From NCBI GenBank assembly GCA_037951105.1, contig JBAMJV010005500.1, forward strand, positions 1 through 64,000: a DNA stretch of 64,000 nucleotides. The letters are read 5' to 3'. This document shows positions 1,909 to 53,900 of this stretch, in pieces. How positions within the stretch are numbered: the first letter of the stretch is position 1; every line of letters begins with the position of its first letter. The DNA comes from Echinarachnius parma (taxonomy: Eukaryota; Echinodermata; Echinoidea; Clypeasteroida; Echinarachniidae). The position numbers and the translations under genes were made by a program. The notes under the pieces were generated by a model. It was not told the DNA's origin and ran no database searches. It was given only the letters and a program-made list of their open reading frames with translations.

Positions 1909-2071
1909 GCCGATCTCGGTCGAGTGATATCAACCGTCGTCTTCAGCGCTCTGTCGGGTTGCGAAAGTTCGGTAATGTGCTGGTGGAAATGGAGCCCGAG
2001 CTGGAATTGGAAGATGCGCATGAGAGATTTGACTTCAGGGAAACTTGGTTCGTTGATGAAATGTTCATACC
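1909..2071 (+). CDS. Exon 1 (of visible part): anaphylatoxin C-terminus and alpha' N-terminal region
   Basis: Acceptor tattacag, donor CC|GTAAGA; enters in phase 1, leaves in phase 2. It encodes an arginine-rich helix ending in RSVGLR-K, the place where vertebrate C3 has LGLAR and is cut by its convertase. An acidic stretch (EMEPELELED) follows, as in the N-terminus of C3b alpha', and then FRETWF, matching FPESWLW of C3. The anaphylatoxin cysteines are not here and must be in an earlier exon. Confidence 0.85.
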
Positions 2072-2546: not shown

Positions 2547-5500
2547 ATTATTAGTATTATTCAGTGAAGGAATGTGGTCTCATAAATTTGGGGAAGCACA
2601 CCTTTTGTATTTTTATTTGTTGTTATCCCTCAATATTGTTTTTGTAAAATTATTGGGGGATGCAATTAAGTGCAACCCCCGTAGATTAGGCACTGCTATT
2701 ATCGATATTATTATACACATTATCATTATTGATGTTGTTATTGTTATAATGATAATATTATTATTGTCTAAAAGGGAGAATGAGAACGGACAGGTTGAGG
2801 GTACGAGCACAGTACAGTATGTGGCTCCCAGTAGCATGACCGAATGGAAGTTGGCCGCAGTGAGCGTGTCTCCGAGCATGGGAATGTGTATCGATGACTC
2901 TGCATCCCTGAATGTCTTCCAGTCCTTCTTCATCCAGCTGCATATGCCGTATTCCGTCATGAGATTGGAGCAAGCTGAAATCATCGCCACCATCTTTAAC
3001 TACCGCGACTATGAAATGAATGTAAGCTTTGGAGTGAATCATTACATTTGCCAAATTCAACCAAAATCAATAGTCTTCACATTTCTCTTTTACCTAGTTG
3101 CTTGCCTTATAGTAACAGAAGCATGAAATTTATAAAGATTTAACAACGTGTCGCCCTAGTTATATAGACTTGTTAAAGGGACTTAGTAACATTGTCCAAA
3201 TCCTCAAAATAAAATTGTAATTCTAGCGGTTCCTTTATACCTTGTTGTATTCGTATTAACAATAAAATCATGGGACAGCTTTCGGTTTTTCAAATTTCCC
3301 TTTCATTACAAAGATATGTATGATTGAAGTATTTAGATAAGAAAATCTCCGGTCGAGATTTTCATCCCTGTACAAAGTGAATGCAGTGAGTTGGTGAATA
3401 TCACCCAATATCACTTTGCATTTTCGCTCATTACTTGGCCATACATTGTCCATTTGACCTGAAATTTTCACACAATACCCTGAGGACATATGAGATAACA
3501 ACAGTATACATTGCATCAACCATTCATCAGTTTTTGCACATCTCAACAAAGTTACTAGATCCCTTTAAGGTTGAATTAAAAATGTTCCAGAAGGTTTTGA
3601 TCGCAGTCAAAATCGATGGGCAGTAGGTGAGAAAATCTGGCATAAATGTTCACTTCTTTCACTTCTCTCTCTATGAGAATATCACACATCATTAAGAAGG
3701 ATCAAACAATTACGTTGGTATATGAATAAAGTCTCAAATATCACTGTATTCAATCAAATACAAACATGTTCACTCCCAAGAGAGTTTCTAGCCTTTCTAG
3801 TCTTTCTCAATGCAATGAGACTGTTCGAAGTTTTTAGAAGGTGATGGTATCTTTTACTAGTATAGGCAGCATTTTGATCATGTTATTATTATTTGGTTTT
3901 AATCATTATTATTATTATTGTTATCATTATCATTATTATGATAATTTCTCTTTATGAAGAACGTGGTGGTAAACTTCACTGTTCCTGAGGAAGGCCTGTG
4001 CACCGAGGGCCGTCCTGGCGTCCCAATCACTCGTGTTATTAATGTCCCTGCCAACAACGCAGCATCTGTATCGTTAGTTGTTCGGCCGGTAGACGTCGGG
4101 GACGGGGAATATCCCATCCGAATATCAGCTGGACCAGGATCTACCATCCAAGACAGAATCATGAAGAAGCTGCGAGTAGTTGTAAGTTTCATTGTCTATT
4201 TGTTGGTCTTTCTGTCTCTTTTTGTGCATGTATTATGTTTTTGAAACATTTGCTATATGCAAAATGTGATTATGTATTTAACAAACAATATTGTCTTACT
4301 TTAAACGTATGTCAAATCTGTGTCGAGCTGCATTTTTAATTCCATTTGTATCAATAAAAGTATTTATGTGTTGAATACTTTTGTAGACAGTGGACTGTTC
4401 ATAAAAAATTAATGATTCATAATTATTATTATTGGTATTTTGTATAATTATTACTTTTTTATTTAAATTATTATCATTATTATCTTTATTATTATTATAT
4501 TAATCAGTGTTATTATTATTAGTATTATTATTAGTAGTAGTAGTATTATTATCATTAGTATTAGTATTAGTATAATTATCTTAATTTAGTATTATCAATA
4601 TCAATATTACATTGTCATTATTAGCATTAGTGATGTTATTGGTATATGTATACATATTATTGCAGGCTCAGGGTAAAACCAAGGAGGTAGTAAGCACAGT
4701 GGTGTTGAACCCCGGTCAAGTGATGATTATCGATGAACAGCAAGACATGGCAACACAGACTCCAGCAGATCATGTTCTTGATACATGTAAGATCGTGATA
4801 AATTGAATATTGATGGTGTGATTCTAGATTGAACTTATTTATTTACACACTTTCTCAAAACAATAGCATGTGTAGAGTATTGACTATGAGGAGCACTGAT
4901 GGTGGCTATACTAAATGATAGCTATAATAATCAACATCATACTAATGATGAATTAATATTGCAGTAGCGGAGCAAGGAGAGTGAGGAGGGGAGCCTCCTG
5001 GGCCCGATCTCCTCTCGCTTAGGCTCGTCTCTTTTCTTTTCTGTTTTTGCTTGTTGCTTGCTTGTTTATAGTAGTTCTGATTTTGGGGCTTTGAATAGCT
5101 AAAATCCAAGAGCTTCCAGGGGCGGATCCAACATCCTAACGTTTCCGGGCGGATCCAACATCCAAATGCTTCTAGGAGCGGAAGCATCTTTCACTCATTC
5201 GCTGTGGCCCATTAGCCCCCCTTTATTGAACATGCCACTGTCCATTGGTGAACTTCCATATGAAAGGGATCTTGCAATATTGTTTGAATCAGGCAAACCC
5301 ACTTACAACTGTAGTGGTTCTTTCTTACCTTGCTGTTTTAATTATGAAACCAGTTTATGAAAATCACCCATTGGAGTTATCTGACTACATCATATAAACC
5401 CTTTGTAAGTTTTTGCATGTGCATGGCAGCATAAAGTTAGTGACAAGATATCTTTAATGCAGTTTTTTGACACCTGTAATGTACCCTCCTTGACACCAGA

Positions 5501-8500
5501 TGTGCGGCGAGATGGTGATGCGCAGATCCAGAAGTTTAACCTCTCCCTGCCTCAGGATTTTATCCCTGGTACTGAGTACTGCAAGGTCAGCTTAATCGGT
5601 GAGTCCCTCAATGATCGATCTTACCATGCGTGTTGATCTGAGTTTTCAATTCTGATTTTATGTTTACATGAAGCAATGAATAGTAGCAATAAAATACAGT
5701 GAGATGTAGTACATTATAGTAGTACAAACCATTAATAGACCTTTTTGTCAAACAATGGGAAAAAATTGGTCCTGTACTATAACTTATAGGCTGTGGGCCG
5801 AGGATGTTTCTTCTTTCATTCCGTGGCTGAAGAAGCAGGATGCAAGTTTGATGCATCTACAGGAAGAGCGAATAATACAGGGAAGGCTATAGCCTATAAG
5901 AAGTGAGGTTTAGGATTGAATAAGTCAGTTAAATGAAGGAAAACTTTCTAAATAACCCTAGTCGAAATAACATAGTAATAAAATATTTTTAAAATATATT
6001 AAAAATATAGTAATTTAAACAAGAAAATATAATTTCTATATATTTTTTATATATTTTTAATATATGTTTTGCTTCGTAAAAAAATAAGAAAATAGAGAAA
6101 AAATAGGTTTAAAATATTTAAAAAATATATGAAAAATATGTTTAAAATATATTTTATATATATGGTATTTGGAACGCTTAAAAATAGAGAAAAATTATAT
6201 TTTTTTTATATTTCCCACAAAATAGTAAAAAATTATAATTTTATGCTATTTTTTACGTTCCAAATACCATATATTAAAAATATATTTCTTTTATATTTCC
6301 GAAAAAATAGCTTTGAAATATAATTTTTATATATTTTGTACACATTTCAAACACAAACCTACAAATATATATTTTTAATATATTTTTTGTATAATTTTTA
6401 TATATTTTTACTATTTTTTTAATGAAATAGTGTAAAAATATAAGATTTCCTGGGAATAAAGATATTTTATTGACCCGGATCAACATACAACCTGTCTCTA
6501 CAGCAGCCAACCTGCCTATAATAATTAATAGTGGCCTCCAAAAGTGATCCTGAACTGCCTGCATTGGTAAAGAAAAACAATGTTGGTATATAGAGGTCAC
6601 TATATACTGGCCAATTCGGGAAAGTAAAATCATACAATGTATGTTGAAATTTTACTTGCCCCATTATAAAATCAACTTGCCCTCTTACTCCTAGATGAGA
6701 TTAACACATGTGAGATTACACTGTTCTCTTGTAGTACGCGTTGAACAATTATTTAGTTGCCCAATCGGGCAAGCAAACTCGACAATTCATGAAATTTTCC
6801 TTGCCTGACACCAATTTTTACTTGCCCCGGGCAAGCTGACAAGTACTAGTGTTGAGGCTGTATAGTATTAGTATATATGCTGAACATTTCTGTCATGAAT
6901 CTATTTAGTATTTCAATTTATTACAGCGCATATATATTAGATCGGCAAGTAAAAACATACATTTTGACATTCTACTTGCCCCAATGCAAAATTTACTTGC
7001 CCTCTTAGTCTTACTCTTATGTCTTACTTCTAGATGAGTTTTACATGTATGAAATTACGGTACATTGTTCTCTGATGTACCAATTATTGAGTTGCCCGAT
7101 CGGACAATGTATGATGCCCGACACGGGAGTTTTACTTGCCCCGGGCAAGCGGGCAAGTGCTAGTGTCGAGCCCTGCATATCAAGAGATATATGATATGGT
7201 CAAGCTGATTTACACATGACGTTTAGGTATAAATAGATCTGATCGAAAATGACTGACATATCATATATCAAGCCTCCACATGCACTAACTGTTTTCTCAA
7301 CTAGCCCTTTCGGGCAAGTAAAAACATACATTTTGACATTTTACTTGCCCCAATACAAAATTTACTTGCCCTCTTAGCAGTCTGAGTTTAACATGTATGA
7401 AATCACATTGTTAATTCTCTGGTACTTTTACAATTATTTAGTTGCCCGATCGGGCAAGCAAACTGAACAATTTATGATATTTTACTTGCCCGACACCGAG
7501 TTTGACTTGCCCTGGGCAAGCGGGCAAGTGGTAGTGTCGAGCCCTGCATATATATTCAAGAGTATATGATGGTTAAGCTGATTTTCACATGCCATTTAGG
7601 TAACTAAATTAATTATTATACTGACATGAAATGTAATAGGTGGGACAGTAGAATAATTTGAGGGAAAACACAAGATAATTAATCATATGAATTAGCTAGT
7701 CATGACATTATTCTAAGATGGAATGGGTGATATACTGTTCACAATGAGAGGTGCATGCATGTGAAAAGAAACAAGTAATATGAAAGTAAAATCTTACCCA
7801 GTAAAATAGGTGAATATATAGTGCAGCCATGCTGAATTCACCTTAGTAAAGCAGTATTTCGCTACGAAAATGTATTTTACACAATTTTGTCCCAAATATT
7901 CCATTAACTTCCTATTATATTTTACGCAATTAAAATTCGACTTTATAACAGCTTATTTTTAAATAAACCGGGCACTAACCAAAGGATAATTAAATAAACT
8001 TTTTTATATATCACATGCGGAATCACACAAAGTCATGCAGCTTTTTATTAATTGAATTCAAGAATAGAGGAAACTGACTAGAAATATTTTAAATGATTGA
8101 AAATGAGCAAAGAATAATAGGCTTTGCCGGGGAATCAAACCCGACACCTCCAGATTGCTAGACCGGTGCTCAACAACGTGGCCAGTTCTGGCATAATTAT
8201 GCTTTCTGGCATAATTTTGACCCTTTTGGCATCTGGCATTATGCCTGGCATAATTTTACGAATTTTACGAAAAATTTGACGAATTCTGGCATAATTTGAT
8301 CCTTTTTAGCATAATTCTGGCTCGAAGATCATGGTCTCGGCCTCGGAATTTGTGTAAAAATCCTGGTCTTGCCTCGAAAATTTGGGACTGGACCTGGTCT
8401 CGGTCTCAAAAACGTCGAAAATTCTCATTCTAGGCTTTGAAAAATTTCTACGACTACCCCCCCCCCCCCCCCCCCCCCCCCCCGCTTACAGGATTCCCAA

Positions 8501-14500: not shown

Positions 14501-14916
14501 TTGTCGGACACCAGTTGTAACATCAAACCATTCGGTTATCTTTCCATTCACCATAACAGAGCACTTGGTTTGTTTGTACATGTTTTCAATGAGGTCAGCA
14601 ATGGACTTGTCCACACCAATGGAACGCAGACATTTCCAGAGAGCTTCCCTCCATATGGTGTCAAAAGCTGCCTTAAAGTCAACAAATTTCCAGTGGATTG
14701 GTACCCGTCTTTCTCTGGCCTTTTCGAAGATCTGTCGAACGACAAACACAGCATCTGTGGTGCCTCTTGAACTTCTAAATCCACATTGTTCCTCTGTTAA
14801 GTAATTGTCTATGGTTCCTTGAATTCTCGTGAGGACCATTCTACAGAACACTTTCCCAGGTATGGAGAGTAGAGTGATGGCCCTGTAGTATTATTGTATA
14901 AGTATTATTATTATTC

Positions 14917-14987
<71 letters not shown>

Positions 14988-17900
14988 GTTTTTACTTTTA
15001 TTAGTATTATAATTATTGTTATTATTATCATTATTATAATCATAACTAATATTTGTTTCATAAGTAGTAGTAGAAATATTATTGATATATATTACTGTTT
15101 TTATTAGCATCATTATTGCTATTATTATGCAGGGAGCCTGCTCAGTACTCTGGATGTGGATCCTATCGGGGCCCTGGAAATATTGTTGCGGAAAACTCGC
15201 GGGAGTGGGGAGACAACAATGATCTTACTTGCTCCAACCCTCTATTTCTACAAGTACATGCAGGCCTCGGGGCAAGACACACTGGAGTTGGTGGAGAGGT
15301 TCATCCATGGATACCTGGCTTACGGTAATTTGTGTTGGCTCTTTTTGCAAAGATGCATGTACTTAAAATACCACCAAAAAAAGTGCAAATCACCATTGTC
15401 AGTGCGCTCGACTGTTCAGGAGCAGTGATATTTAACATAAATATATTGTGAAAAACTACAACGTTGTTTCGTGGGAGTATTCATGCTCTTTTGGTTTAAA
15501 TATGAAGTAATAAGAACATACACCGTGTCCCAGAAAAAAACGAAACCGGGTTTCATGGCAGAAATTTTATGTTATAATGAATAATTTCCTTGATGATATA
15601 TATATGTCTGAAAAGCTATGTGTCTCTTCTTTTATTTGATATACAACTTATGGCACATAATTCACGCATGACTGAATTAGAACGATAGAAAGTGGTGTTA
15701 CCAAAATTCAATTTGCGCGCAGAAATTGCAAGTTTGGGTGATGTTTTGGGGAGAGTTTTAAAAGTAGTAAACGTACTTATTTTGAAAAAGGACAGGCACC
15801 GCAAGAAAATTCATAATTTTATCATTTATATGACACCTCATGATTAAAAAATAAATTATATATGCCAGAGAACGAATACAATGAAAACATGCTTGATTCC
15901 AGCCCAAATGAGTAACTTTCCTGATATAGCCTGTTTCCTGATCCCCATGTTTGTGTAAATTCACTCATGCATCAAAGTCCATTGTCAGCTGCTAGTCAGG
16001 AAAGCTGAGCGACTTCTTACTCAACTTTCACTCATTCTGGCAGAAATCAGGCATGTTTTCATTGTACTCGTTCTCTGGCATAAATCATATATTTTTTTAG
16101 CATGAGGTGTCATGTAAAAGATAGAAATATGAACTTTTATGTGGTTTTTGTCCTTTTTTTAAATAAGTACGTTTACAACTCTTAAAACTCACCCAAACTT
16201 CAAATTTATGCGTGCAAATTGAATATTGGTAACACCACTTTCCATTGTTCTAATTCAGTCATGCTTGAAGTATGTGCCATAAGTTGCACATCAAATGAAA
16301 GAAGAGACACAGAGCTTTCCAGGCATATATATATCATCAATTAAATTATTCATTATGACAGAAAATTTCTGCCATGAAACCCGGTTTCGTTTTTTCTGGG
16401 ACACGGTGTATAATGATAATGATGTGGATAGTTGAGCACTTCATAAATCTGCAGTATACTATAACTATACTTTCTATAATGATAATGCTATAACTTAATT
16501 TATAAAGAGCTTTTTACAAACATTGAAACAAAACATTGACACGAAATAAAAACAAATGACACCATCAATAGCTTAAAGCCCAAGACCAGTTTCGGGAAAG
16601 TAGCCGAATACATCTATATTGATCAATATTGTTGAATATGTATTTAAATAGGGCTTGTGTGGTAAAATCCGAACCTAAGCATCGTTAAATACAGAAATAT
16701 CGGAAGAAATCCAATATCCGCCTGTGAAATTCATAAATCCACCGCCTGTTTAGACCTCTCAGCGCCGCTAGCGCTGGGGGAGATATCGACAAGCTAGGGA
16801 CAAGCCCATATAGCGCTATATACACCTCGTGTACACCTCGTGGTCGTAATACACGTAGCGTATGAGCGATTCCGCGTTGGCGATATCTATCCGGCCCTAG
16901 ATCAATTTATAATTTTGCAAATATATCAATTAGTAGGCGGTTTCTTGGCCAAATTTGGATAATCCTATATTAGTACAATTATATTCTTTCACATTATTGG
17001 TAATAAGAGCTTCCATTTCATTTTTTGAGAGGGGGGCGTTTCCAAAACTGGCCTTTACCTTTAAAGCTATGACAGTAATGGGAAACGCCCCACACACAAA
17101 CAAAAAATGAAATGTACGAACAATGTGAAAGAATATATTTTTTTCTAATATGGGATTGTACACATTTAGCCAGAAAACCGTCTACTAATTGATATGTTTT
17201 CAAAATTAGAAAACTATCAATGCATTGATAGATATCGGCGATGATTGTGTTTTGATAGGCACCTCGTGCGCTACCTGCAAAACCTATGGCAAATGCGCGA
17301 TGTGGTTTCGCATGCGAACAAGCGTATAGATGTGGCCAGGGTAGACGGGTTGAACTGGCGGTAAATGTAAGCCCAATGTCAGCGGCTTGCATGAACATTT
17401 TAACTGATATTTCTGCATTTAACGATACTAAGGTTCGGATTTGTCAACATTTTCTATACTATTTCAACAATACTGGTCAATTAGTTTGGCCAATAAATAT
17501 ACTTTCGGTAACTTTCCCAATACCGGCATTGGGCTTCAACAGCAATACACGGCAGTTATTAATGACATAGTAAATAATGTATGCTTCAAGAAAAAAATTG
17601 ACACAGCGCCATGTACTCTATTCAGAGTCATATCGTTAACATTATCGTTGGTCAAACAGTTCAAACTCACACAATTATCTTGGGCCACATCTCAACTCAC
17701 TTGGAAACAGCAATTAGCCTATGCTGATCTGCGACACTGGGCTCAAAACGAAACTTTACATTTTTCACATGGTCATATCTTTAAATCCTGTCTATCAAAG
17801 TGAACCGAAATGACACACCGGATTACTTCAATACTCTACTCTAAACGCATGTTAGCTAACTGCCTTAGCGTTGTTCGTATGCTGGTTTATCCCGCACCGC

Positions 17901-20900
17901 GCGTTCATTCTCGGCCCGCGCGCGCGTATAGTACGCACGTACGTAATCTTCGTGGAAGGTGGCAAACAATCCGGGTAGCGCGATCAGAGGGCATTGCGCG
18001 TTTAGTGGGCCTGTAGCGATAGTGGAATGGATGCATTATAGTGGGCTGCGCGCGGTATAAAACGTTCCCAGTCGGAACTAAACGCATGTCGGTAACCAGG
18101 CAGTTGCCCAACTGACACAACCTGACAACAGCGAAAATCACTGAAATGGAACAGCTTCCAGGAATCCGCCTGTTAATGCACACACTCGGAGCAGCTCTAC
18201 AGGAAGAGTGGAACAATCTCCCCCCAAGCCTAGCTGTATCAGAAACCTGGTGGACAGCATGGCGTAGCAAATGCACTGAATGCTTCCAAGCACACAGTTC
18301 CATATGCCAGCCGCTAGTGCATTGTTCAGTTCTGTCAGTAAGGTAACCGTTTGGATACTGACATGTCATTACAGTTGAGTATTGACGTAATCATGTGCGT
18401 CATTTTGATTATTGTTGATGGACAGATTTTCAAGATATGACCATGTAGTGTGAACATATTTGAAAAAGTGAACAAATTTTGTTTTAACCCAGTTTATAAA
18501 GGGTGTTACAGCTCAAAGGATACCCAACCGAGTATCCATTTATACTCCTAGAGAGTAGCATTGTTGATTGAGAGCATTTGTTGAAGGACACAAATGCCAG
18601 GGCAATGCTAATCACACCATATAGCAGCATAAAGATAAAGTATTAAGCAGCAAATCAAGATCTGATGTTTGCATTTCATTATATTACACATTATATTTGA
18701 AATATCATATAATTTTTACTCAAACAGGAATTGCAAGAGAACTTACTTATCGGCAGAATAATGGTGCTTACGCTGCATGGCTGCATAGACCAGGAAGCAC
18801 ATGGTAGGTAGACATCATGTTCTCAGTCAAATTAATGTGATCAATTAATAACTTCATAAGATTTTTCCAAATGTAATGTTTGAGATTACAGGCTTAAATA
18901 CCAAGATTCTTGTGAATAATGTGTGAAAGAAATTTAGAAAAAAAATGTTGTTCACTTAGTGAAACAAGGACATTAATGTCATATTCGTTAATGCATACTG
19001 CATATTAACTATAGACGTACCCAGGGGGTGTTGGGGGTTCAAACACCCCCTCCCCCCCCCCCCCCCTTGACGAAAGAAATGACTGTTTTGGGGTCAGAGG
19101 GGCCGAGGCCGAAACCACCCTCCTCCCGGGCCCCCTCCCCCCCCCCCCCCCCCCCGTTTATTCTTGTACCGTTCTCGAGGCAACTTTTTATCGGCCTAAC
19201 CCTCATAACCAATGGTTTCACCCCCCCCCCCCCCCCCCCACCCCCTCTCAACCTGAAACATAATTGGCGACGGACACACCACTCCCCCGCTTGCACGACT
19301 CTCAATCCGTGGTCTCGGTCTTAACCTCAAAATATTTGGGGAGACGGACAGGCCGCCACCACCCCTCGCCCCCCCCCCCTCCCCCGCCCGTTTATAATAC
19401 TCTAAACCAGTCGTCTCGGCCTCGAAATGTTTTTGCTAAGTACATGCCCCCCCCCCTCCCCTCTAACGCGACGGACCTCCCCCCCCCCCCCCCCCCCCCC
19501 CGCTAGACGACTCTCAATCAGGTCTCAGCCTTGGCCTCGAAGATTGTTGGCGACTTGGCGACGGACCCCCCCCCCCCCCCCCCCCCCGCTTGAAATAAAC
19601 AACTTCCAACCGGTGGTGTCGGCCTCGAACATTTTTTGCCGACGGAATAACACCCACCTTGAACAAATCCAGTGTACGCTCATGCCCTTGATTGTGCCCG
19701 ACTACAATTTTAATAAGCATTACAATACAATTTACAATTTTCACAGAAAATTGTGAAAGCTCCAGGTTCTGTTTTTCTGTAGGAAGGGGCCATACACTTA
19801 ATAAAAACCATTTTGCATGCACATTTATGAGCCAGCATCACATTCATTGAACCCATTGGATGGCTTTTACAGACAGGTTTAGCTGAAAGTAATACCTTTT
19901 TTTTTGTGCAGGCTAACAGCTTTTGTTGTGAAAGTGTTCAGCGAAGCATCCCAACTAACAGAAGTGGAGGCAGAGCATGTCAAACAGAGCATTGCTTGGA
20001 TCATAGACAACAACCAGAATGCAGCAACTGGCGTATTCAGTGAAAGCCAGCATGTCCTCCATCAGGAAATGATTGTTAGTACCAATACAAAGGGGAGGAG
20101 GGGGCTCTATATGCAAAGGGTTAACCTGTAGTGTTAAGCACTGGTCAAATGGACCCATGAAAGGTTCACTATAACAATTTTGGGGATTTTGTTGCATGTT
20201 TTGCGATGTCATACAACTGTCGTGCGACAGTCGTAACACTAAATGAGTGTCGTACAACAACAAATATGTTATGCCACCACAGGTCCACAACATTGTGGTC
20301 TTACTGTGTCGTGATAACGACAATCGTACAACATTTGTACGAAAAATGATATGTTGTGGATGCCAAAAGTTTGGTGTGTCATACGATAGAATTAAGTGCA
20401 ACGTAACGACACCGTTTTCTAACTTCTCTGTTCCTGTAGTGAAAGCATATACAATATAATTCTGACCAGTTCCATGACAATCATACAAGATTTTACCGCA
20501 ACAGAAGATGTGGGTTTCATTGTCACCATGGCTTTAGCAAGATTTGGCAATCCCCATAGACTTGTTAAACCACCCATCCTGCAGCCAAAGGGTAAGTAAT
20601 TTGCTTAATTTCTCTCTGTTTTTATATTAATGAAAGCTATATCTTGTACTTTCTGATCAGTTTCTTCTTTGTCTGTAATGTGCTTCTTTGATTTGTTTTA
20701 TGTTGCCTAGGGAGCAGTGAAAGGAGATGTTTCCATGACAGCGTTTGTGCTGATATCTCTTCTTGAGAGTAAGAAGAAGCTCGTTGGGGGATATGATGTA
20801 AGATTTCGTTAATAAAGAACATGTTGGGTCCCAGGGCGATTAAGTACCCAAATTGACCAAACAAGCACTCAATCGGAAATAGAGCGCCTGTAAAAAAAAT

Positions 20901-23900
20901 GCATTTACGGTTCAATGCAAGACAGCTAATTATAAATTGCTCTTTTCATGCAAGCTTGAAAAATAGCCCCCTGAAACAAGATATGATTTGTTTTTTCCTT
21001 CTGACTAAGGAAAATATGTATACCAAGCAACAAAATTAATAAACGGCAATCTCGGCAAAACACTTTCAATAAAGGCACTGTAATACAACCTGTGTATACA
21101 GACCACCCAATGGAAACAATTGAAAGATCTATTACCTAGTCTTCCTTTGAAATTTAAAATTTCCCTTCCTAGAAAAGACGTTTGTGTTTCGGAGTAATAG
21201 GTTTGAATTATCAGATTATGACTCGTACAGACTGGGTTTCCATGAAAATGTTTTTTTTTTTGTGAGAGATGCCCTGTAAAGAAACTGTACATCATTATTT
21301 AGTTGATTGCCCGCAATATACGATAGAAAGAGCCATGCTCATAATTGAAACAAGTACAAATGAAGTAAAAGAGATAATGGATTTGTTAAAGATCATTGAT
21401 GTTCATACTCAAAGAACACTTTTCGTTTTGTATATAGAACGGCTCGCTTCACATTTTTTTGAAGAAAATTATTTAGTATATTGAGTAGATGGTTGGTATA
21501 AAATACATTCAGTTATTATTTCTATTTCACTTTCATATGGGATTCATGAATGCCAGAAATATACCGAAATATAAATTGAGACCTAAACACATCAGTGGCA
21601 GGAGAACTTATGTGTGAGGGATTTCAATCATAATCATGGGTATAGGCATTTTTCTTCAGGTAAAAACAATGTCTAAGTCAGGGGCTCTGTCAACAAGTAG
21701 AAGGGGATCATACAATGCTGACTGCAGCCCATAATTTAAATCACTGTAATTCAATAGTTGTAGTCAACTTTAAAGAAATAATAATGTGTATGCAGTTTTA
21801 CGTACTAATGAGTAAAAATTACGGTACAGATTAGTATTGATCAATTTCGGTAAGCATAGTAGTGTACAGAGTGTCCCAGATAAAACGAAATCGGATTTCA
21901 TGGCATACATTTTCTGTCATAATGAATAAGTTCGTTGATGAGATAAACATGAATGAAAAGCTCTGTTTCTCTTCTTTCATTTTATGTACAACTTATGGCA
22001 CATAACTCACGCATGACTGAATTAGAACAATAGAAATTTGTGTTTATTACCAAAATTCCATGTGCACGCAGAAATTGCAGGTTTCGGGGAGTTTTTAGGG
22101 TAGTAAACGTACTTTCTATCTAATTAATTCTGTCATGTCTGTATAGAAACTGCTTGAAGTCAATGGTGCCATTCCTAAAGCGAAACAGTACCTGGAGGGA
22201 GAAGTGGAGGGCAGGAATATAGAGAGAGTATATGACAAGGCGATTGTTGCGTATGCTCTGGCACTTGCTGACAGCTCACATGCCATTGGTGCAAATGAAA
22301 TTCTCATAGAAGATGAAATCGTGGAGGCTGGTATGTATAAACATATTTGTCAATAAAAACGACCAGAAATAACAGAAACTGTTTAAGATATGTACTGTTA
22401 TCAGGTAAACATATGTACTACTTCACGAAGCAAAAGCTGCATTAACTCTGGAAGTGATACATATATATAACCTGTTCAGAACTAATTGACTATGCTATGA
22501 CATGTTCAGTATGAATATTTTCGGGACCAGTCCTGAAGGGGTTCAGACAGTCAAAGCTAGTGCAATCAATTTGGTCGAAAGTATTTGAAAAAGGCAGTGT
22601 ATGGATCGATTAAGTTATAATCGTGTCTGTGACAGGTACATATATATATATATATATATATATAAAGCGAAGAGTGCTTTAACCCACGTACACGTTTGGA
22701 TACCAGTAGTGAACATATTAAGTAGAAAGAAGGGCTGCTGGTGAGGCGTAGCTAGCTTTTTTCTTCACTTTATTGTGCCAATATTTCGTCCGTAAAGGAC
22801 TTCATCAGGGCTCGGGCGATTTGGATTGTGTGTGAGGCCAAGTTACTGGGGTGGGTGGGTGTGTGCGGGAGTCATGACGGCTCATAGAATGTGTTTGACA
22901 GTGTCCAAACAAAATTGTGGTCAAATCGAGGAGAAGAACTGGAATCGAGCAAATATGGATTTGCTCGATTGGATTTGCTCGATGAAGTCCTTTACGGACG
23001 AAATATTGGCACAATAAAGTGAAGAAAAAAGCTAGCTACGCCTCACCAGCGGCCCTTCTTTCTACTTTTTATATATATATATATGTGTGTGTGTGAAACA
23101 GGTTTAGGGGAGTGCCATGGAATATTGGATCAGGCTACTCAGGCCTTCATCTTTCAACCCATTGCTTTGGAAGACTTGGGTGACTGTGTACATGAGTATT
23201 TCTTTTTCATGATATCAGAGGAAACGGGTTCATTAATCCTATGAGCATGATGAGTGCAAAATTAGTATGTATTAAATGTGTTTTCTATTTTAGCCCTCAA
23301 CATGGTATGTGTTGTGTCTTTCCAATGTGAAACAGATACAGGTGCTGTGCACTTTGATCCTGATCCACAAAACTATGGTATCAGCGATAAGCCATTCTGG
23401 TTGCTAAGCAGACCCTCTGCAATCTCCGTGGAAACAACGGCATATGCCCTCCTTGCTCAGATGGAGTTGGGAAAGTATCGTTATGCTGGACGGATGGCGG
23501 CTTGGCTGAGTAATCAGCAGAACTATGATGGGGGCTTCGTGTCCACCCAGGCCAGTAGATTGCACTTTAATCTTGAGTGGCTAACAGGGAACCAATACTT
23601 TAAACGTTCAGTTTGAATCGCATATGCCTTTAAATAGTGTTTTCAGAGTCAAAAAGTGGGACTATATTCAAGACATCGAATACAATTAAAATATAAATGA
23701 TAATGACTATATAATTGATTAATAATAATGAATACTAAATGTAATTTGGCTTACAGGAAGTTTATGATTTATATAAACAACTGTATCAAAAAAGGTATTA
23801 TGTAACTGAACACTGATTTGAGTCAATTTACTATAATGTTTTTCCTAAGCCATCACTTTTAACAAAGGCTTATTTGAATCGGGAGTCTTGCATGGGGACT

Positions 23901-44900: not shown

Positions 44901-47900
44901 CCGATGCAACTATTTACAAAACAAGAACACTGCAAACTTGGACACGGGTAGTTTTTGCATGCCTTTGGATAATTAGGTCGCGTTCGGTGAAACGTGAAGT
45001 GATCAGAGTGTATGATATATCACATTAAAGGCAATTTCCCAAGCTTTAACATGATACCAATATCAACATATATATCTTTTGGATTTATAAGCTATCAAAG
45101 TCCGGCTTCGGCTTTGTTTTACTCGCACTGTATATATATGTGTAATGTATGTGCAAGCTATTATCATTAATATTTCTCTTCGTGTGAATGATTTTTCCTT
45201 TCAATTCAGGATACTGTTGTGGCTACACAAGCTCTGGCCACGTACGCTGGCCGGCCTAAATTTGAACATGTGGAACTGGATTTATTTGTACATTCAGACC
45301 GCTCTCCAGAATTAGATTTCGGCTACCGAATCGATGACGAAAATGTCAACATTTTGAAGGAATTTCCAGTGAGTAGTACAAATATCTATTTGGCGTTTAA
45401 CTAAAATTGACAATATCAACATGAAAGGAACATACCTAGGGAAGGGGAATTGACTAGGTCACAGAGAAGAACTTGGCCAACTATACATGCAAATTATTAG
45501 TAGCCAATATGTGGCGATGGATAGGAACTGCTAAATCTTTACATTCATAGAACTTGCGTTACAATGACGATGCATTTGCAAGAATGGGCACCAGCAGTCT
45601 GTGCTAGAATGTAGATGGACACAATTTATCAGTGTTGACCGAGTTCCCCCACCACTACCTGACTACGCAGTGATCGACGTAGCTATGGAAGGAAAGGGGG
45701 GGGGGGGGTAAGTAAACCAAAACAAAACATACAAGGACACTTTGTGGAGAAATAAAGAAAAACAAAAGGTGCGCTACCCTGGTAATACAGAAATCTTGAT
45801 TCTCTTTATTTTGTAGCTAGGTTTAACCTAAAATCTGACACTATGGGTTGCTTAGGCTTGTATGGGTAGGAGACATCCCAGAATAGTACTCAGGCCAGAT
45901 AATATTGGTTTGGATATAGCGACGAGATGCAGGACCATCGTCACGTATTTTTTCAGTCTGCAGAGAGCAAAAAAACAAAGGAAAAAATCCTTAGTCTAAA
46001 TTCTACATGCACTGTTTACATTGTGTAAATATGTAGCAACATTATTACAAGCAACCTGTTTTGACAATACACTGTGTGTTAATTGTTATTCTGCAATTTC
46101 TATAAGTCAATAATCATCATGTGACAGTTAAATAACAATGTTTGCTTGTGTCATTATTGTCATCTCAATCATTAAAGCAGCTTTTATAATCCCCACAGAA
46201 TTGCATTACTTTATGCATAAATTATCTTACTTTGATAATTCATAACCTATAGAATTTCTTCTCAGTATTTTCTAATTTAAATTAAATCCATAAAATTGTC
46301 AAATATCATTGACTGATTCAGCATGACTCAATTGTGCTTTATTCTGCACGCAAATGTATCATCTGCACTAAAATATTCCTTGTGCACCAAACACAGGCTA
46401 AAAGTATCAACTTGATACCTGGTGTTTATCTTACACCTTATTTTGTCTCTAAAATCATCTAATTTCTATTTACACTCTGGGGATTATAAATCTTGCTAAA
46501 AACCAGCAATATCAATGCGCTCAACTCTCCTGGCAACAACGTAAATTAATGAATTGATGAATGAAACCATCTTACTTACTAGAATCACTTTGGCAAGTTC
46601 ATCTAAATTGAATTAAATGTGTCTACAATGTTTCTGATTTATTTCTTATTTCTTCATATTAGAGGGTTTTTATTCCAAAGTTGCCAGAAACATTAGGTTG
46701 TATGGTAGTTGGTAATTGCAACAATAATACAACCAATAGATGGATCAATTTCAAAGTTGGTATGGGAGTACATATTAGGGTGCCAATAATCTGCCTTGGC
46801 ATGACAGTATCATTGAAGATCATTCCAGCAATGATAGTTTGTACTATCACCGTTCGTGTCGATGATTATTTGCTTAATCACATGTTGATTATTTCCTTCT
46901 GACTACAATAGGTTACTAGTGCCATAGGAGATTTATTGACTCTACGTGCGAGAGGATATGGAGTTGGCAAGGCTCAAGTAAGTAGTAATTAAACCATATT
47001 TATGTATGAAATGTAAAAGAAAAACAATGGAATATACAAGCCTGGAAAGGCATTTCTTAACATTTGGAAGATATGCAAGTATGAATGAAAGTAGAGACAA
47101 ATAATAGCTGAGTAAATACACTCTTAAAAGTATTGGGTAAAGCTTGGATACCTAAGTGCCCTCATTAATGGGTAAACCCAAACTGGGCATTTCTATGCCC
47201 AACTGCATACATTTTGTCCAATTACATTCTCATTCTTACCCAATTGCTGTTCATTTTGGGTAAGAATGAGCAATAATTGGACAAGATAATGTGCAGTTGG
47301 GCATAGATATTCCCTGTTTGGGTTAACCCATCAATGAGGGCACTTATGTATCCCAATAGGCTTTACCCAATATTTCTAAGAGTGCAGGTATCTATCTAAT
47401 GGATGTTAATCTGCTGTTTGCTGATTTAAATGTAGCAATTTAATTTATATTTCGTTGAAGAACTAAACCCTGCTAGATTAGTTCCTTGCTAAGTGTATTA
47501 TTGATGTGCAGTTTATTGAGCAACAAACAGGTGTTTTAAGTAAGTAAGTAACTAGGCTAGCGGGCTTTTATGAATATGGGCCCTGATGATTGAAATGTAG
47601 AATGTGGGATGTTTATTTTCAATGGAGATGGGCTCCTTTGGGTCTAAATCATTTGAAGAGCTTAAATGTGAAACTGATAAGACTTTTTGTTTAAATACAG
47701 GCACCATTTTATGAGACAGCATATTGTATGTTCAATTATATCTTACATATACTGAAGTATATATACTGAAGTATTTTCTTTAAGATATGATTATAATATT
47801 ACATATTTATTATTATTGCCATTGTTTTTCAGGAGATTATGACGGGATTGTATAAATGTAATGTTCTATTCAGACCCTTCATTTTCTCTCTGGCATGAAC

Positions 47901-50900
47901 ACCTTGTGCACGCAAATTTGATTGGACGATAGAGAGGGTTTACCTATACTCGATGCGTGTTTCACGGTTTTGTCTGGTTCTTAAAATTAAATGAAGAGTT
48001 TCCAGAAGCCGGATGTGAATTACTATAATATGGCAAGGTTGGCAGCCACTTGAAATTGTATCATATATCAATCATCAATAAATACTTAAATTTAGAACTC
48101 ACAAGTAGCAAACCAGGCAGAGTGAAGAAATATATTCAACATATCAAGATTTAGTCGATGGATGTTATTTTTCTCAATATTGTATATTTGTTTGTATTAT
48201 GATTTTGTGTTATTTTTTAATTATACTTTTTTTGCAATTATTTTCTGATTATCATTTCTTGTCTGCCACTAAATGCTATTTTGATTTTTGTTTTGGTGTA
48301 ATCTATGATTTTCTTTTAAAGTGGTAGTACAGTTTTGGTAAGGCTGAACTTTAGTTGCCAAAACCTGGTCAGTAACCATATAAACTAATATGTATAACTC
48401 CACCATGCTCGAAAGGTATACAAAATTACAAACGACTAAGTAAAAAGCCCGTTATCATTCAAAAGGAGCCATTAAAACATTAAATGGCGCTTTCTAAAAA
48501 GGCATCGGTTTCAACCATTTTTCATACAAAATTATGCATGTGATGTTTTATTGAAATAATGATTAAATAGAGAGATCATCAACAACTATTTAAAAAAACG
48601 CTCTCTACCAAAACTGAACTACCCCTTTAATATGATTTGTATCATTATTACTATTGTATTGTAATTTCTGAATATTTTTGTTTCTGCCACTGAATATTAT
48701 TATTTGTTATATTATACAAAATTTTAAGACCATTGAATGCGGGGTTTAATGAGGATTTGTTTCATGTTCTAACTAGGTTGTGCTGGGTTATAACCAAGAG
48801 GAATCTGACAGAGAAACATGTCCATTCAATGTGACCATAGTCACCATAGTCACTGAAGTGCGTAATATCAACCGACGTATGCCAGATTTGCTCAACATCA
48901 CTGTTTGTGTAAGGTAAGATAACATTTGGCTGTATGAACCCCTATATCTATAACATGTCAAACATATATTTCATAAGAAACTTGCCCTAGAATAAACTAT
49001 TATTACCTATTCTGTTTGAAATGGAGATGATATATTGAAGAAAATTAGTTTGGTCTGGGTCAAATCGCGTAATTTTACGTCATCCGTAGGCTAATCAGGA
49101 CAAGTTTTATCGGGGGCTGTATCTACTTTTTAATCTTGCAGGCATAACAATTAAGGACTGGCGCTGAAATTTCCAATCCTATCCCAACCTCCCAACAGTG
49201 CGGATAGGGTTTTTGTCTTCCAATGTTCACGGCTCGCGGGCTCGTGGTTTTATCCCTTTATCAGTTTTATTTTTTGCCACTTTCATATCGGGTATATAAT
49301 TGGTATGATGCGGGTGGAAGTGCTTTACATGTAGGTATAGTCCATCTAGAATGCTCCCCTAAGAGTGAACAGAGTGAGCATGTCAATAATGAAGTGACTT
49401 AAGGGTGTGTATATCGGATGACTGGCTCAAATTGAATAATTCAGTGTGTTGCGCATCGAGATATACAGTGGCGTAAACAAAGTGAGGGATGTGGGCTTAA
49501 GGCGGGTCGGGTGTTCAATTAGCCTGAAGCCATGGGCGTATATATCTGTCATTGATACGTATTCAACTAGGGAATGATCTATTCCTTCATCCCCAACCCC
49601 CGATGAATAGGTATTACGTAAGCCCATGCCTGAAACACTTTATATCCTGGGCTAGTATGCTCCACTAGGAGTTAAGATGGTGCACAGGTCATTGTGCAGA
49701 ATTTAATTGTACTTGATAAACAAGGGTAATAATGCACCTCTGAATAAGGCACCCTGGTGCATAGCGCTTGTGAAATGCTTTATATCATTATTACATTAGT
49801 TACCCAGGTGATTAGTCTATAGATTTTTGTTTGACAGGTATTTGAGGGAATCTTTTACTCACATGGGCATCATTGACGTCGGTCTGTATTCAGGTTTCAG
49901 GGCAGTTACGGCCGATCTTGAAAAGGTAGGTTTTATCATTTCCCACGACAGACCAATTCACTAATGCAAGACGGTGACGAATAGGCAACAAGGTGATAGG
50001 AATATTCTAAGGCTCAACATTTCTCATCGTGTATCATAATTATTTTGTTAATATTTTGTGTTCAGATAGAACTAATTATGTGCTTGTACACATTCTAATC
50101 TAAAATTACTGCAAAAATAACTTGCATTTAGCTCAATTTATTAAATGTACATTTTATTTGTGTATTCTGTGCGTTCACATTGTAGATTTATGTAACAGTT
50201 GATTCATATGGTATGGATTTGGTCTTGTATGTTAAATGTACATAACAATGGGTTCCCAAAATCCCTCCATACCCTCTTCTGTGAAACACATGATTTGGCT
50301 GGCTTCATTTGATATAATTCGACATTTCATTTATAAAATGTTGTCAGTTTACACCTTGTATTGTTATAATGTATTATTTCTCCATGTGTTTGAATTTTGC
50401 ACATTTGATATGTAAAATAAAGAAACTGAACTGGACCAATTATATTTCAGCTTACGAACAGCGGAGGCCTAATTGCCTCATACGAACATGGCCAACGCTC
50501 CATCATCTTTTACGTAGACCAGGTAATTTGTTTGTGTTTTTAACCAGTTTCTTTGTGTCAACATGTAATTTGCAATACCAAAATAAAAATACAATGATTT
50601 GATACTGTACAATTAATTAAAGACTATTTAATAATCTTAAAAAGTGGTTACATATTCCTAATTGTGTTTTCTATAAAGTGATGAATATATTTACACAATA
50701 TTGGAACATAGGATACTGCCACCATAAGCTATTGAATGAAGTCAATGGCAGCCTATAATATTGATGCACTTGCAAAGTTAAAAATTCAGTTCTTTTTCCC
50801 CGCAATTGAAGGTTTTTTTTTTTTTTCCGCATCAAAAAGAAAGCACAAAATAATCATAAAAAAGTACTTCAATTACATTTCCAAAATCTAGTCTGTAGAA

Positions 50901-53900
50901 AAGTCCTTAGAGTCTGGCGCAGTCATGCTAATTTGTTTTTTGTGTTGATATGATTTTGGTACACTAAAGCCCATTTTGGTAACCCTAGGCGAGTCGGCAC
51001 AGCAACATCAACTACATAACCCACTTATGTTAATAATGTACGCTCAGATGTGCTCAGATGAATACGGAACTGTTAGAAAACATGGCATCCTCAAAACAGT
51101 CAAAATCGTTGATAGTGGTGTAAAAAACATTGATTATTTCCATGATTAGTGATATCCAAGAGTAGTATACGAATATATGTGACAACAATTCTGCAAGTCT
51201 AGCGTTTCCAATAACTTACAAATGTTTTTTTCTGATGTTCATATGTGAGACTTCAATCAGTGTACGATTCGTCTAGATGATATGTGTTAGTAAATCAAAG
51301 ACATTTAAACACTGTTTGCCTTTTTAAAGAATGTCAACATTTATGTCAGATTTGATCAAATTACTGCCCAAATATAAAACAAGTGTTTGATTGTTTTTTA
51401 GTTTATTCATAAATATCTCCATGACTAGGGAAACATGTATAGACAACTCAAAATCTATATAATTATTATGTTACTAAAGACAAAAACAAGCTAGGTTCAC
51501 GTGAAATGTGGTATATCTATTTAATTAGGGTTACATATTTAAAAATTTGATGGATTACTTTGCTAACAGATGCCTTTTTTCAGATATTAATTATGCAAAT
51601 AATTGGCATAAAACAAAATCATCTCTTTTTCTGTATAGATACCCAATGAAGAGAGCTTGTGCTTCAGTTTCAAGGCTCAGTCTGACGCTGTAGTTGGCAA
51701 CATCCAGCCTGTGCCAGTCCATGTCTATGACCTCTACAACCCACGTATGTCTTAAAATGTCTTAAAATTACGGCCCTCCTCTGAAACCTAACAATTTTGG
51801 AAAATACCACGCTCAAAAACAAACTGCACGCTTTTAATCACCAACAATGTGAAAGAATATATCATCACTTTATCTTTTAATTTAATCAATTGGCAAAAAA
51901 CTGCCTTAAAATTGATTATTTTAGCAGTAAAATGTTTTATATTAACCCGTTCAAGACGTATTTCCGGGACTAGTCCTGAGCGGGTTAAAATGTTTGTAAC
52001 CCCTACTTCAGTTCACCTGCACATGAATAACATTTTCATAAAAAGAAGACAAAATATGTTTGTATATGATTTGCTCTGTTTACATGATGGGCCTACAAGT
52101 ATGTGTACAAATATGATTGAATTAACTTTTTTTTGCTAGCAGAAACTTAAAATATGCGTGCCGTTGTTATATGGGTTTTTGCAGCAAAACAAAAGTTGTG
52201 TTTTTATTGGCATTTGCATTAAAAACGTTTGTGTAATGATGAAAAGATTGCAATATAGGCAGGCCCTTGGCCAGGCGAGGGTGCCTTGGCTACGTACGCA
52301 CCCCACAAATTCAGAAAGGTCCACAGTTAACCAGTAGTCGTGGGCAACTATCGGTCTTGTTGACAGGCAGATATTAAGCATTACAATGAATATATTCCAA
52401 CCAGGTGCGCATTTACTACACTTGCGTTGAGATCAGCAATATGGCTTGCTGAAGGGTCTTTCCAAAGGGTGACCCCCTGATTTCTGACACCCCTGACACC
52501 CCTGACACCCCTATTCTGACACCCTTTTTCCCCATTCATTTTGTACACGGATTTTTTTCCCTTTCCCCCGCTTTTGTTCATGAGACAGTCTCTATGAATG
52601 GTTCTTTTGCTTGTTAATATTCATTAGCTATTTAATCGATCTTTAATAAAGAGAGACTTGGTCTAATTTCGTTTCTTTGATTGGCTTTTTAGGAGAGGCT
52701 TGGTCATTTTCGAATCTGAATTTTCATTAGCTATTTGTGTACGTATGTGTGGGATCATGATCTCGTCGTGCAAAAAATACGACGACCCGTTTTAAAAAGT
52801 TCCTGAAAATGAATATTTTACCGAAAAAATCATAAAATGAGTCACGTTTGAGATCTCTTAAATGTGCAGTTTGATGTATACCATTGAAGTGTTAAGAAAC
52901 GGACGCATTTTGTTCTCACGAACATTTTTCAAGGGGAATGACAGAGTTGTTCGTTCTTTTGTTTTCAAGTTTATACCAGAGGTGCCGGTGCGTGTTAGGC
53001 ACAGCTGCTGCCAGGCGGCCGGCCCCAGCCGCGTTCCCTAGTGCCTAATGCGAGGGTTGCAATGCTGAGGACATGAACTTTGACTTATGATGAAAGCGAG
53101 AAATACCTTGAAACAGGCGAGGCTGGGCCGAGGCTTTTACCTGCTCCAAGGTGACATCCTTTCCACGGGTCCGAGCACTCCTAGCTCGGGGCTTCCGTCG
53201 GCGGTGCCGTAGCCCGATGGTAGCGGCGTGCGAGGAAGTCCGCGACGGGTAGCGAAGCCAGCTGGTCTGCTCTGGGGGTGCGACTCCTAACGGAGGCGCG
53301 GGTGGTGTTGATGTACACGGTACATACAAATATAGGGGTCTATCCGCACGATACACACGTGTGAATACATATAGTTCGTGGAGCCGATGGTGCACTGACA
53401 GCGGGTATTAGGCGTCCGTTCTCAGTGCAGGTAAAGTCAACCACCGAGCTGATTAACGGACGTCTATTACCCGCAAGTCAGCTCACCATCGGCTCCACGA
53501 ACTTATATTCGCACGCGTACAGCGTGTGGATAGCCCATTTATAACCGTATGTACCGTGTACACCAACCGCGCCTCCGCTAGGAGTCGCACCCCCGGAGCA
53601 GACCAGCTGGCTCCGATACCCCGTCGCTGAGCGCCCCGCACGCCTCTACCATCGGCCTACGACACCGGCGACGGAAGCCCCGAGCTAGAAGTGCTCGGAC
53701 CCATGGAAGGGATGTCACCTCGGAGCAGGTAAAAGCCTCGGCCCAGCCTCGCTTCAAGGTAATCTCAAGGAAACAAAAGCAAACAAACTCACCGGTTTTC
53801 CACGCGTGCCGTTGGTCTTGCACACCACCGACCTATATCTGCTCACCGGTTTTCCACATCCCCATTACATGTGGGTACCTATATCTGCTAAAATAGGGGC

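Follow-up and report, generated by a model that had tools for sequence, protein, structure and literature searches.

A Putative Complement C3 Paralogue of Echinarachnius parma with a Replaced Thioester Motif and Thioester-Bearing Relatives in the Same Genome

Gene Structure and the Replaced Thioester Motif

The stretch analysed here, called the window, comprises the first 64,000 nucleotides of the forward strand of contig JBAMJV010005500.1 (C5494:1-64000) in the Echinarachnius parma assembly GCA_037951105.1, a genome of 1.2 Gb in 14,790 contigs. It contains the last 22 exons of a C3-like complement gene in which the thioester motif GCGEQ is replaced by GSGET. An internal thioester requires both the Cys and the Gln, and both residues are replaced in this gene. 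An independent rebuild gave 22 exons on the plus strand at 1909-62258, with all phases consistent, a protein of 963 aa and the final codon as the sole stop, in agreement with the 22 open exons of a first-pass annotation made from the sequence. That annotation also called the gene intact, which is true of the open frame; however, the start of the contig truncates the gene, and intron 11 has a GC donor. Since the contig starts mid-gene, the MG1-6 domains lie outside the window, which covers the part from MG7 to C345C. Upstream in a paralogue of the same genome, C1070, pieces matching parts of residues 246-646 of a Diadema C3 (P0001) were found.

The former thioester motif GSGETTM, which stands in place of GCGEQTM, is located at 15201..15221 in exon 6 (15133..15324), a 192-bp TED exon whose two boundaries are both in phase 1. 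Its codons are GGG AGT GGG GAG ACA ACA ATG; the Cys position is AGT (Ser, 15204-15206) and the Gln position is ACA (Thr, 15213-15215), exactly as the first-pass annotation had read them, whereas complement C3 has GCGEQ there. The His near the thioester (VIHQEM type) is kept in the window as HVLHQEMI, with its codon at 20060-20062. The surroundings of the motif had been described as well conserved, but this does not hold for exon 6, where a 50-residue match with the closest paralogue is 60% identical at the protein level, while three other exons (74, 61, and 75 residues) are 96-98% identical. The possibility that the window contains another, intact thioester exon was rejected, as neither motif patterns on both strands nor tblastn revealed one there.

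A Pfam search with the 963 aa protein found, in order, A2M/MG7 (72 bits), TED_complement (272), A2M_recep/MG8 (86), and NTR/C345C (59), and the order MG7-TED-MG8-C345C is the one expected of the C3 family. All exons are on the plus strand. Exon 1 (1909..2071) encodes the start of the alpha' chain and MG7 (RRLQRSVGLR...DFRETW) and has no Cys pair at the position at which the anaphylatoxins of SpC3 and C2351 terminate in CC. It is followed by exon 2 (2808..3021, A2M/MG7 by Pfam, MPYSVMRLEQ), exon 3 (3960..4181, MG7, with 96% protein identity to C1070), exon 4 (4666..4786, the MG7-CUB linker), and exon 5 (5500..5598), which carries the first CUB part (FNLSLPQDFIPGTEYCKVSLIG). Besides exon 6, TED is encoded by exons 7 (18728..18803), 8 (19912..20074, with the thioester-acting His codon), 9 (20711..20797), 10 (22147..22330, within a stretch 95% identical to C1070), and 11 (23342..23550), where TED ends. 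The second CUB part lies in exon 12 (45210..45368) and the CUB end in exon 13 (46912..46977). Exons 14 (48777..48913) and 15 (49838..49925), both assigned to MG8 (A2M_recep) by Pfam, are followed by two further MG8 exons, 16 (50451..50522) and 17 (51639..51744), and by the anchor region CSQYECICAR in exon 18 (54308..54397). C345C starts in exon 19 (55707..55787), continues through exons 20 (56409..56492) and 21 (59653..59794), which match NTR in Pfam, and ends with the stop codon in exon 22 (62120..62258). A few exon boundaries depend on phase fit or on paralogous sequence: those of exons 4 and 5 were placed with the help of C4254 and C1070, and for the exon 19 acceptor the first of five frame-compatible candidates was taken. 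Similarity to L021 hinted at an additional exon near 47600-47678, which was dropped, since exons 13 and 14 join in frame.

The donor of intron 11 (23551-23552) is GC in the window and GT in all six paralogues read, while the other modelled donors are GT. GC splice donors can be functional, and this one is a caution and no proof of damage. Intron 11 is 21.7 kb long and contains, on the minus strand, an open reading frame (ORF) that matches tyrosine recombinase (phage integrase) at 30259-31305 and one that matches reverse transcriptase at 32664-34115, together looking like a DIRS-type retroelement. Further reverse transcriptase fragments, also on the minus strand, are located at 14222-14890 (intron 5) and 41587-42168 (intron 11).

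Relatives and Phylogeny

When a first 602-aa model was compared with solved structures, the highest score was obtained with complement C3 (214 bits), followed by A2ML1 (194), cobra venom factor (183), C4 (181), A2M (179), CD109 (174), C5 (170), and TEP1 (118). The protein search scored 7,989 candidates, of which 723 passed, and the best 120 of 723 were considered; the top three among these are C3-like proteins of Diadema antillarum with 46-49% identity. A second search, seeded with one of the D. antillarum proteins, added the C3 of Strongylocentrotus purpuratus (48% identity to the window) and a protein of Lytechinus pictus (45%). The window protein and 230 relatives from the two lists (best 120 each) were then aligned automatically.

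GCGEQ is found in 217 of the 231 aligned rows; two rows are gapped at this place and, among the matches listed, ten others keep the Cys with other changes. The S. purpuratus, Lytechinus, and three D. antillarum proteins all have GCGEQ (5/5 among the matches listed). Orthologues with the same Ser/Thr pair, which the first-pass annotation suggested looking for, do not occur among the 230 relatives listed. Among these matches, just one further sequence has Ser in the Cys position, a C3-like protein of the ray Narcine bancroftii (P0039), which aligns with GSGEG and has Gln at the His position. This is perhaps another loss of the thioester, judging from the aligned sequence, and it is unrelated to the echinoid one.

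A TED tree with 37 rows, in which no C5 sequence was included, groups the window with C1070 (support 100/97), this pair with C4254 and C5875 (99/91), and all of them with two GCGEQ copies of the same genome (100/100). These copies are joined by S. purpuratus C3 and Lytechinus (98/92), and the three D. antillarum copies stand outside (100/99). The echinoid placement is retained when the thioester exon is left out (96/94 and 100/99). Another contig of the E. parma genome, C2351, forms a second C3 type together with a C3-like protein of Diadema setosum (100/100), and the C3 and C4 of vertebrates are grouped in a clade of their own (100/99), separate from the window copies, in this tree without C5.

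We therefore assign the window gene, from its sequence, to a SpC3-type complement C3 paralogue within a lineage-specific expansion of the sea-urchin lineage. Taken together with urchin phylogeny, the gene tree makes a euechinoid host very probable. The annotated complement gene of an invertebrate is thus supported by the C3-family domains, the best structure match and the position within the echinoid SpC3 clade, where the TED tree places it. The suggestion that the loss was independent of that in vertebrate C5 also agrees with the data, as the five echinoid relatives and sister copies in the same genome keep GCGEQ. The label "C5-like", in contrast, is not supported as a description of its kind: the gene belongs to the echinoid SpC3 clade, and no anaphylatoxin was found in its sister gene C1070. 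Orthology to C5 was rejected because GCGEQ is retained by the closest relatives, both within this genome and among other urchins, and because of the placement in the echinoid clade. An identity as A2M, CD109, or TEP was rejected given the presence of C345C and the best structure match to C3. The arthropod MCR, a thioester-less TEP, lacks C345C and has an LDL-receptor A domain; this identity was likewise rejected, since NTR/C345C is present and Pfam reported no LDLRA in the 963 aa.

Copies in the Same Genome and a Probable Single Loss of the Cys

The thioester exon was read at 15 places of the E. parma genome. The first Pfam search scored the best candidates only, so this means at least 15 places, and more genes are possible. 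Within the clade of the window, C5085, C10372, and C6936 have GCGEQ, C5372 has GCVEQ, the window has GSGET, C1070 has GSGEE, and both C4254 and C5875 have GSGEN. Outside it, GCGEQ was found in the second C3 type (C2351) and at six A2M/TEP-like places (C8076, C6208, C878, two in C1977, and C6773). Thus, the Cys is present at 11 of the 15 places and Ser at four, which correspond to three genes, since C4254 and C5875 are 99.1-99.8% identical over the stretches compared and were counted as one; they are probably haplotigs kept separate in the assembly. A thioester-bearing paralogue in the same genome, another point that the first-pass annotation had proposed to look into, therefore exists in several copies.

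In the TED tree, the three Ser copies are recovered as a single clade (99/91), with weaker support when the thioester exon is left out (83/83). DNA trees split the Cys copies from the Ser copies with support of 90 for the thioester exon alone and 85 for exons 7-8. All Ser copies use AGT, and GCGEQ is found in all seven rows that serve as echinoid outgroups (SpC3, Lytechinus, D. antillarum 1-3, D. setosum, and C2351). Since the three AGT genes form one clade and the outgroup rows have GCGEQ, the sequences point to a single TGT-to-AGT change as the shortest history. The Gln codon afterwards went three ways, to ACA (Thr), GAA (Glu), and AAT (Asn).

When the window is compared with C1070, patches of 94-98% DNA identity that include introns (19729-22661, 23070-24447, and 50356-54004) can be noted between stretches that are mostly 80-87% identical. 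This mosaic is apparently best explained by recent gene conversion or recombination between the copies, and divergent haplotypes may be an alternative source.

Several other details of these genes were observed. The thioester exon of a second gene on C5875 was not found in 8500-26900 or in L035, and C1181, a near-twin of C878, has no thioester exon in the stretches examined. In A2M/TEP-like genes, an exon with DTVVALQALSEFA or a variant of it is repeated, with four matches in L024 (C6773), three in L026 (C1977), and two each in L027 and L028; these are perhaps alternative exons. The second C3-like gene on C2351 contains partial second copies of the LPYSV-type exon (L009:1905-2027) and of the His-bearing TED exon (L009:6066-6170). 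A second, partial and stop-containing copy of TED exon 11 lies beside the intact one in C10372 (L011:986-1063). An intron of C1070 (L030, about 4954-5480 of the reverse strand) has a tandem repeat of three near-identical open segments (IRSKRQDLFKDFSSNKYFNLATFSEANREM) with a spacing of about 177-180 bp.

Constraint on the Thioester Exon

Selective constraint was estimated with a custom script for maximum likelihood on codons, using seven tips, 65 codons for exon 6, and a Ser grouping chosen by motif. The overall omega (ratio of nonsynonymous to synonymous rates) of exon 6 is 0.57. Separate values for the Ser tips (1.37) and the rest (0.32) fit significantly better (likelihood ratio test, LRT, 13.44 with one degree of freedom, p about 2.5e-4). 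When all 35 possible tip triples are compared, that of the Ser copies comes out highest; the next (LRT 10.08) consists of three Cys copies with low omega. For single tips, omega is 1.12, 1.22, and 2.62 in the Ser copies and 0.11-0.38 in the Cys copies. In the next five TED exons (7-11), the values are 0.44 for Ser and 0.40 for the rest (LRT 0.10), and in exons 7-8 alone, which lie mostly outside the high-identity patch, 0.36 and 0.75 (LRT 1.29).

The comparison of the window with C1070 gives a similar result. Across 14 of the other 21 exons, with 63.0 nonsynonymous versus 57.0 synonymous differences, omega is 0.31; the value for exon 6, with 31.5 versus 11.5 differences, is 0.83 (Fisher p 0.021), and without the high-identity patches the other exons have an omega of 0.28 (Fisher p 0.019). 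The introns next to the thioester exon gave divergence values too noisy to be of use. As indicated by these comparisons of coding sequence, constraint has been lost in the thioester exon alone of the Ser copies, and the next five TED exons keep theirs; because exons 7-11 remain constrained, the Ser copies appear to be living genes and not decaying ones. The fold of TED is probably kept as well, since 19 of the 21 hydrophobic columns of exon 6 are still hydrophobic in the Ser copies, the exceptions being the position of the Cys and a single L-to-P replacement.

The Anaphylatoxin Region

The C2351 exon homologous to window exon 1 opens with VFRDCC, which contains the Cys pair at the C-terminal end of the anaphylatoxin, and CC is present in 39/39 of the relatives, among the matches listed, from which a motif allowed this region to be excised. 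No Cys is encoded by exon 1 of the window or by that of C1070. In C1070, the exon (DSGLTVLTNTGLDVASRE) that precedes the place of the anaphylatoxin has phase 1 at its end, and its junction with exon 1 is in frame. Two anaphylatoxin profiles found both flanking pieces in C1070, but at profile positions between 27 and 116 nothing rose above the level of shuffled sequence. The positive control, C2351, was found at 91-138 and covers the C-terminal part only. In positions 1-2071 of the window, the profiles found the exon 1 piece and, at 589, a 3.7-bit match to the pre-anaphylatoxin stretch (best shuffled score 2.6). L034, L036, L037, and L038, examined with regard to the GCGEQ sister copies, gave no match to window exon 1. 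Thus, C1070 seems to have lost the anaphylatoxin, and the window gene, whose upstream part is off the contig, is likely to be without it as well, judging from exon 1 and its kinship with C1070.

Proposed Function and Alternative Explanations

We consider it probable that the window gene is the C-terminal part of a functioning C3 paralogue encoding a plain non-covalent C3b-like protein, and this reading is ranked first. Without the Cys and the Gln, no internal thioester could form, and the protein would not attach covalently to its targets, because the thioester needs both replaced residues; covalent opsonisation would be absent. The protein would not be activated through the release of C3a; it would be made directly in a C3b-like non-covalent form, perhaps without activation by a convertase. 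It might act in the fluid phase or bound through other domains, such as the alpha' N-terminus, MG7, CUB, and C345C. For instance, it might interact with factor B and the convertase of the thioester-bearing copies as a partner, competitor, or regulator that does not itself attach to targets.

Ranked second, and overlapping with the first reading, is a possible but rather unlikely elaboration. The former thioester exon would now be a diversifying contact surface on a TED fold retained by the three Ser copies, its exposed face varied by positive selection, with gene conversion in other parts of the gene contributing. The omega values of the single Ser tips, the retained hydrophobic columns, and the patches of high identity with C1070 beside less similar stretches agree with this, as does the number of variable columns in exon 6, 33 of 65 among the three Ser copies versus 22 of 65 among the four Cys copies. 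However, the excess of omega over 1 is not significant (LRT 0.94), and the basis of 65 codons and three copies is small. In a wider and likewise rather unlikely form of this reading, an echinoid clade of C3 genes would have lost both the anaphylatoxin and the thioester at once and would produce constitutive non-covalent C3b-like proteins, with the former thioester exon as a diversifying contact surface and gene conversion holding other parts of the copies similar. A pseudogene or dying copy, in which the thioester was the first to go, would agree with the GC donor unique to the window among seven copies read, the 21.7 kb intron with its retroelement ORFs, and the N-terminus off the contig; we regard it as doubtful, as the 22 exons are free of stops and frameshifts, the same Ser occurs in two further genes, and exons 7-11 are as constrained in the Ser copies as in the GCGEQ copies. 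Slightly less credible still is a C5-like effector, that is, a thioester-less C3 still cleaved to release an anaphylatoxin before a non-covalent terminal lytic step. The C345C domain and the acidic alpha' start are retained, Ser replaces Cys as it does in the C5 motif GSAEA, and SVGLR in exon 1, as we read the sequence, could serve as a convertase-like Arg site, but the profiles found no anaphylatoxin in C1070, window exon 1 lacks the Cys pair that is so general among the relatives, and the gene groups with echinoid and not with vertebrate complement.

Two further explanations concern the exon itself. Skipping or swapping of exon 6 in transcripts would preserve the frame, given its 192 bp and phase 1 at both ends; this is very unlikely, as the exon is open and retains its hydrophobic columns and the window shows no alternative thioester-like exon by motif patterns or tblastn. 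A base-calling or assembly error as the source of the Ser codon has a negligible probability, because the same AGT is found in the homologous exon of three other contigs; among the four contigs, neighbouring bases differ in three, with C4254 and C5875 agreeing.

Several points weigh against the non-covalent C3b-like reading that we prefer. MG1-6 of the window gene lie off the contig, and splicing could be reduced at the GC donor of intron 11. The omega of the Ser copies in exon 6 is not significantly above 1 (LRT 0.94 when fixed at 1); therefore, relaxed and diversifying selection are not told apart. The protein tree of the thioester exon alone, with outgroups, does not resolve the Ser clade. 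The absence of the anaphylatoxin is a negative search result in a fast-evolving stretch, with a C-terminal control only and no GCGEQ paralogue of the clade covered. Finally, the copies may be separate loci or partly divergent haplotypes.

Comparison with Known Systems

The closest known counterparts are S. purpuratus C3 and its echinoid relatives (P0121, P0122, and the D. antillarum proteins P0001-P0003), which share 45-49% protein identity over 777-927 window residues. The full-length ones have the same MG7-TED-MG8-C345C arrangement by Pfam and belong to the same clade. They differ from the window gene in keeping GCGEQ (5/5, versus GSGET), and P0121, P0122, P0001, and P0002 have a Cys-rich anaphylatoxin segment with CC, while window exon 1 has no CC pair.

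The loss of the thioester in duplicated invertebrate C3s has already been published; according to that source, C3-like proteins lost it independently many times after duplication in cnidarians, protostomes, and invertebrate deuterostomes (PMC8960428), and the echinoid case adds another example. The same source describes the razor clam ScoC3-like-3, a duplicated C3-like protein without a thioester and with the motif GCVSQ (PMC8960428). There, too, the loss followed a lineage-specific duplication; however, the razor clam protein keeps the Cys, whereas in the echinoid case Cys is replaced by Ser in three related copies and an exon-wise loss of constraint is indicated. Gastropod C3-like type I proteins, as presented there, have neither the anaphylatoxin domain nor a conserved thioester (PMC8960428), a double loss as seems to be the case in the echinoid copies; since these are mollusc proteins, their loss is independent of the echinoid one. 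Among the titles and abstract openings listed by searches of open-access literature, no description of exon-limited loss of constraint or of this echinoid Ser clade was found.

The genome of E. parma holds thioester-bearing and thioester-less copies of one C3 clade. The constraint imposed by the thioester is therefore directly measurable, with one TED exon freed and its neighbours not. If the anaphylatoxin has also been lost, this would be a C3 that needs no activation by a convertase and that can be compared with its own covalent paralogues in one animal. Vertebrate C5, which has Ser at the Cys position in its GSAEA motif, resembles the window gene in lacking the thioester, which is no requirement for the wider C3 family, and in keeping C345C. 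It differs in carrying C5a, while the window gene lies in the echinoid SpC3 clade and scores 170 bits to C5 versus 214 to C3. The window gene and its Ser sisters may represent the echinoid parallel to thioester loss in C5.
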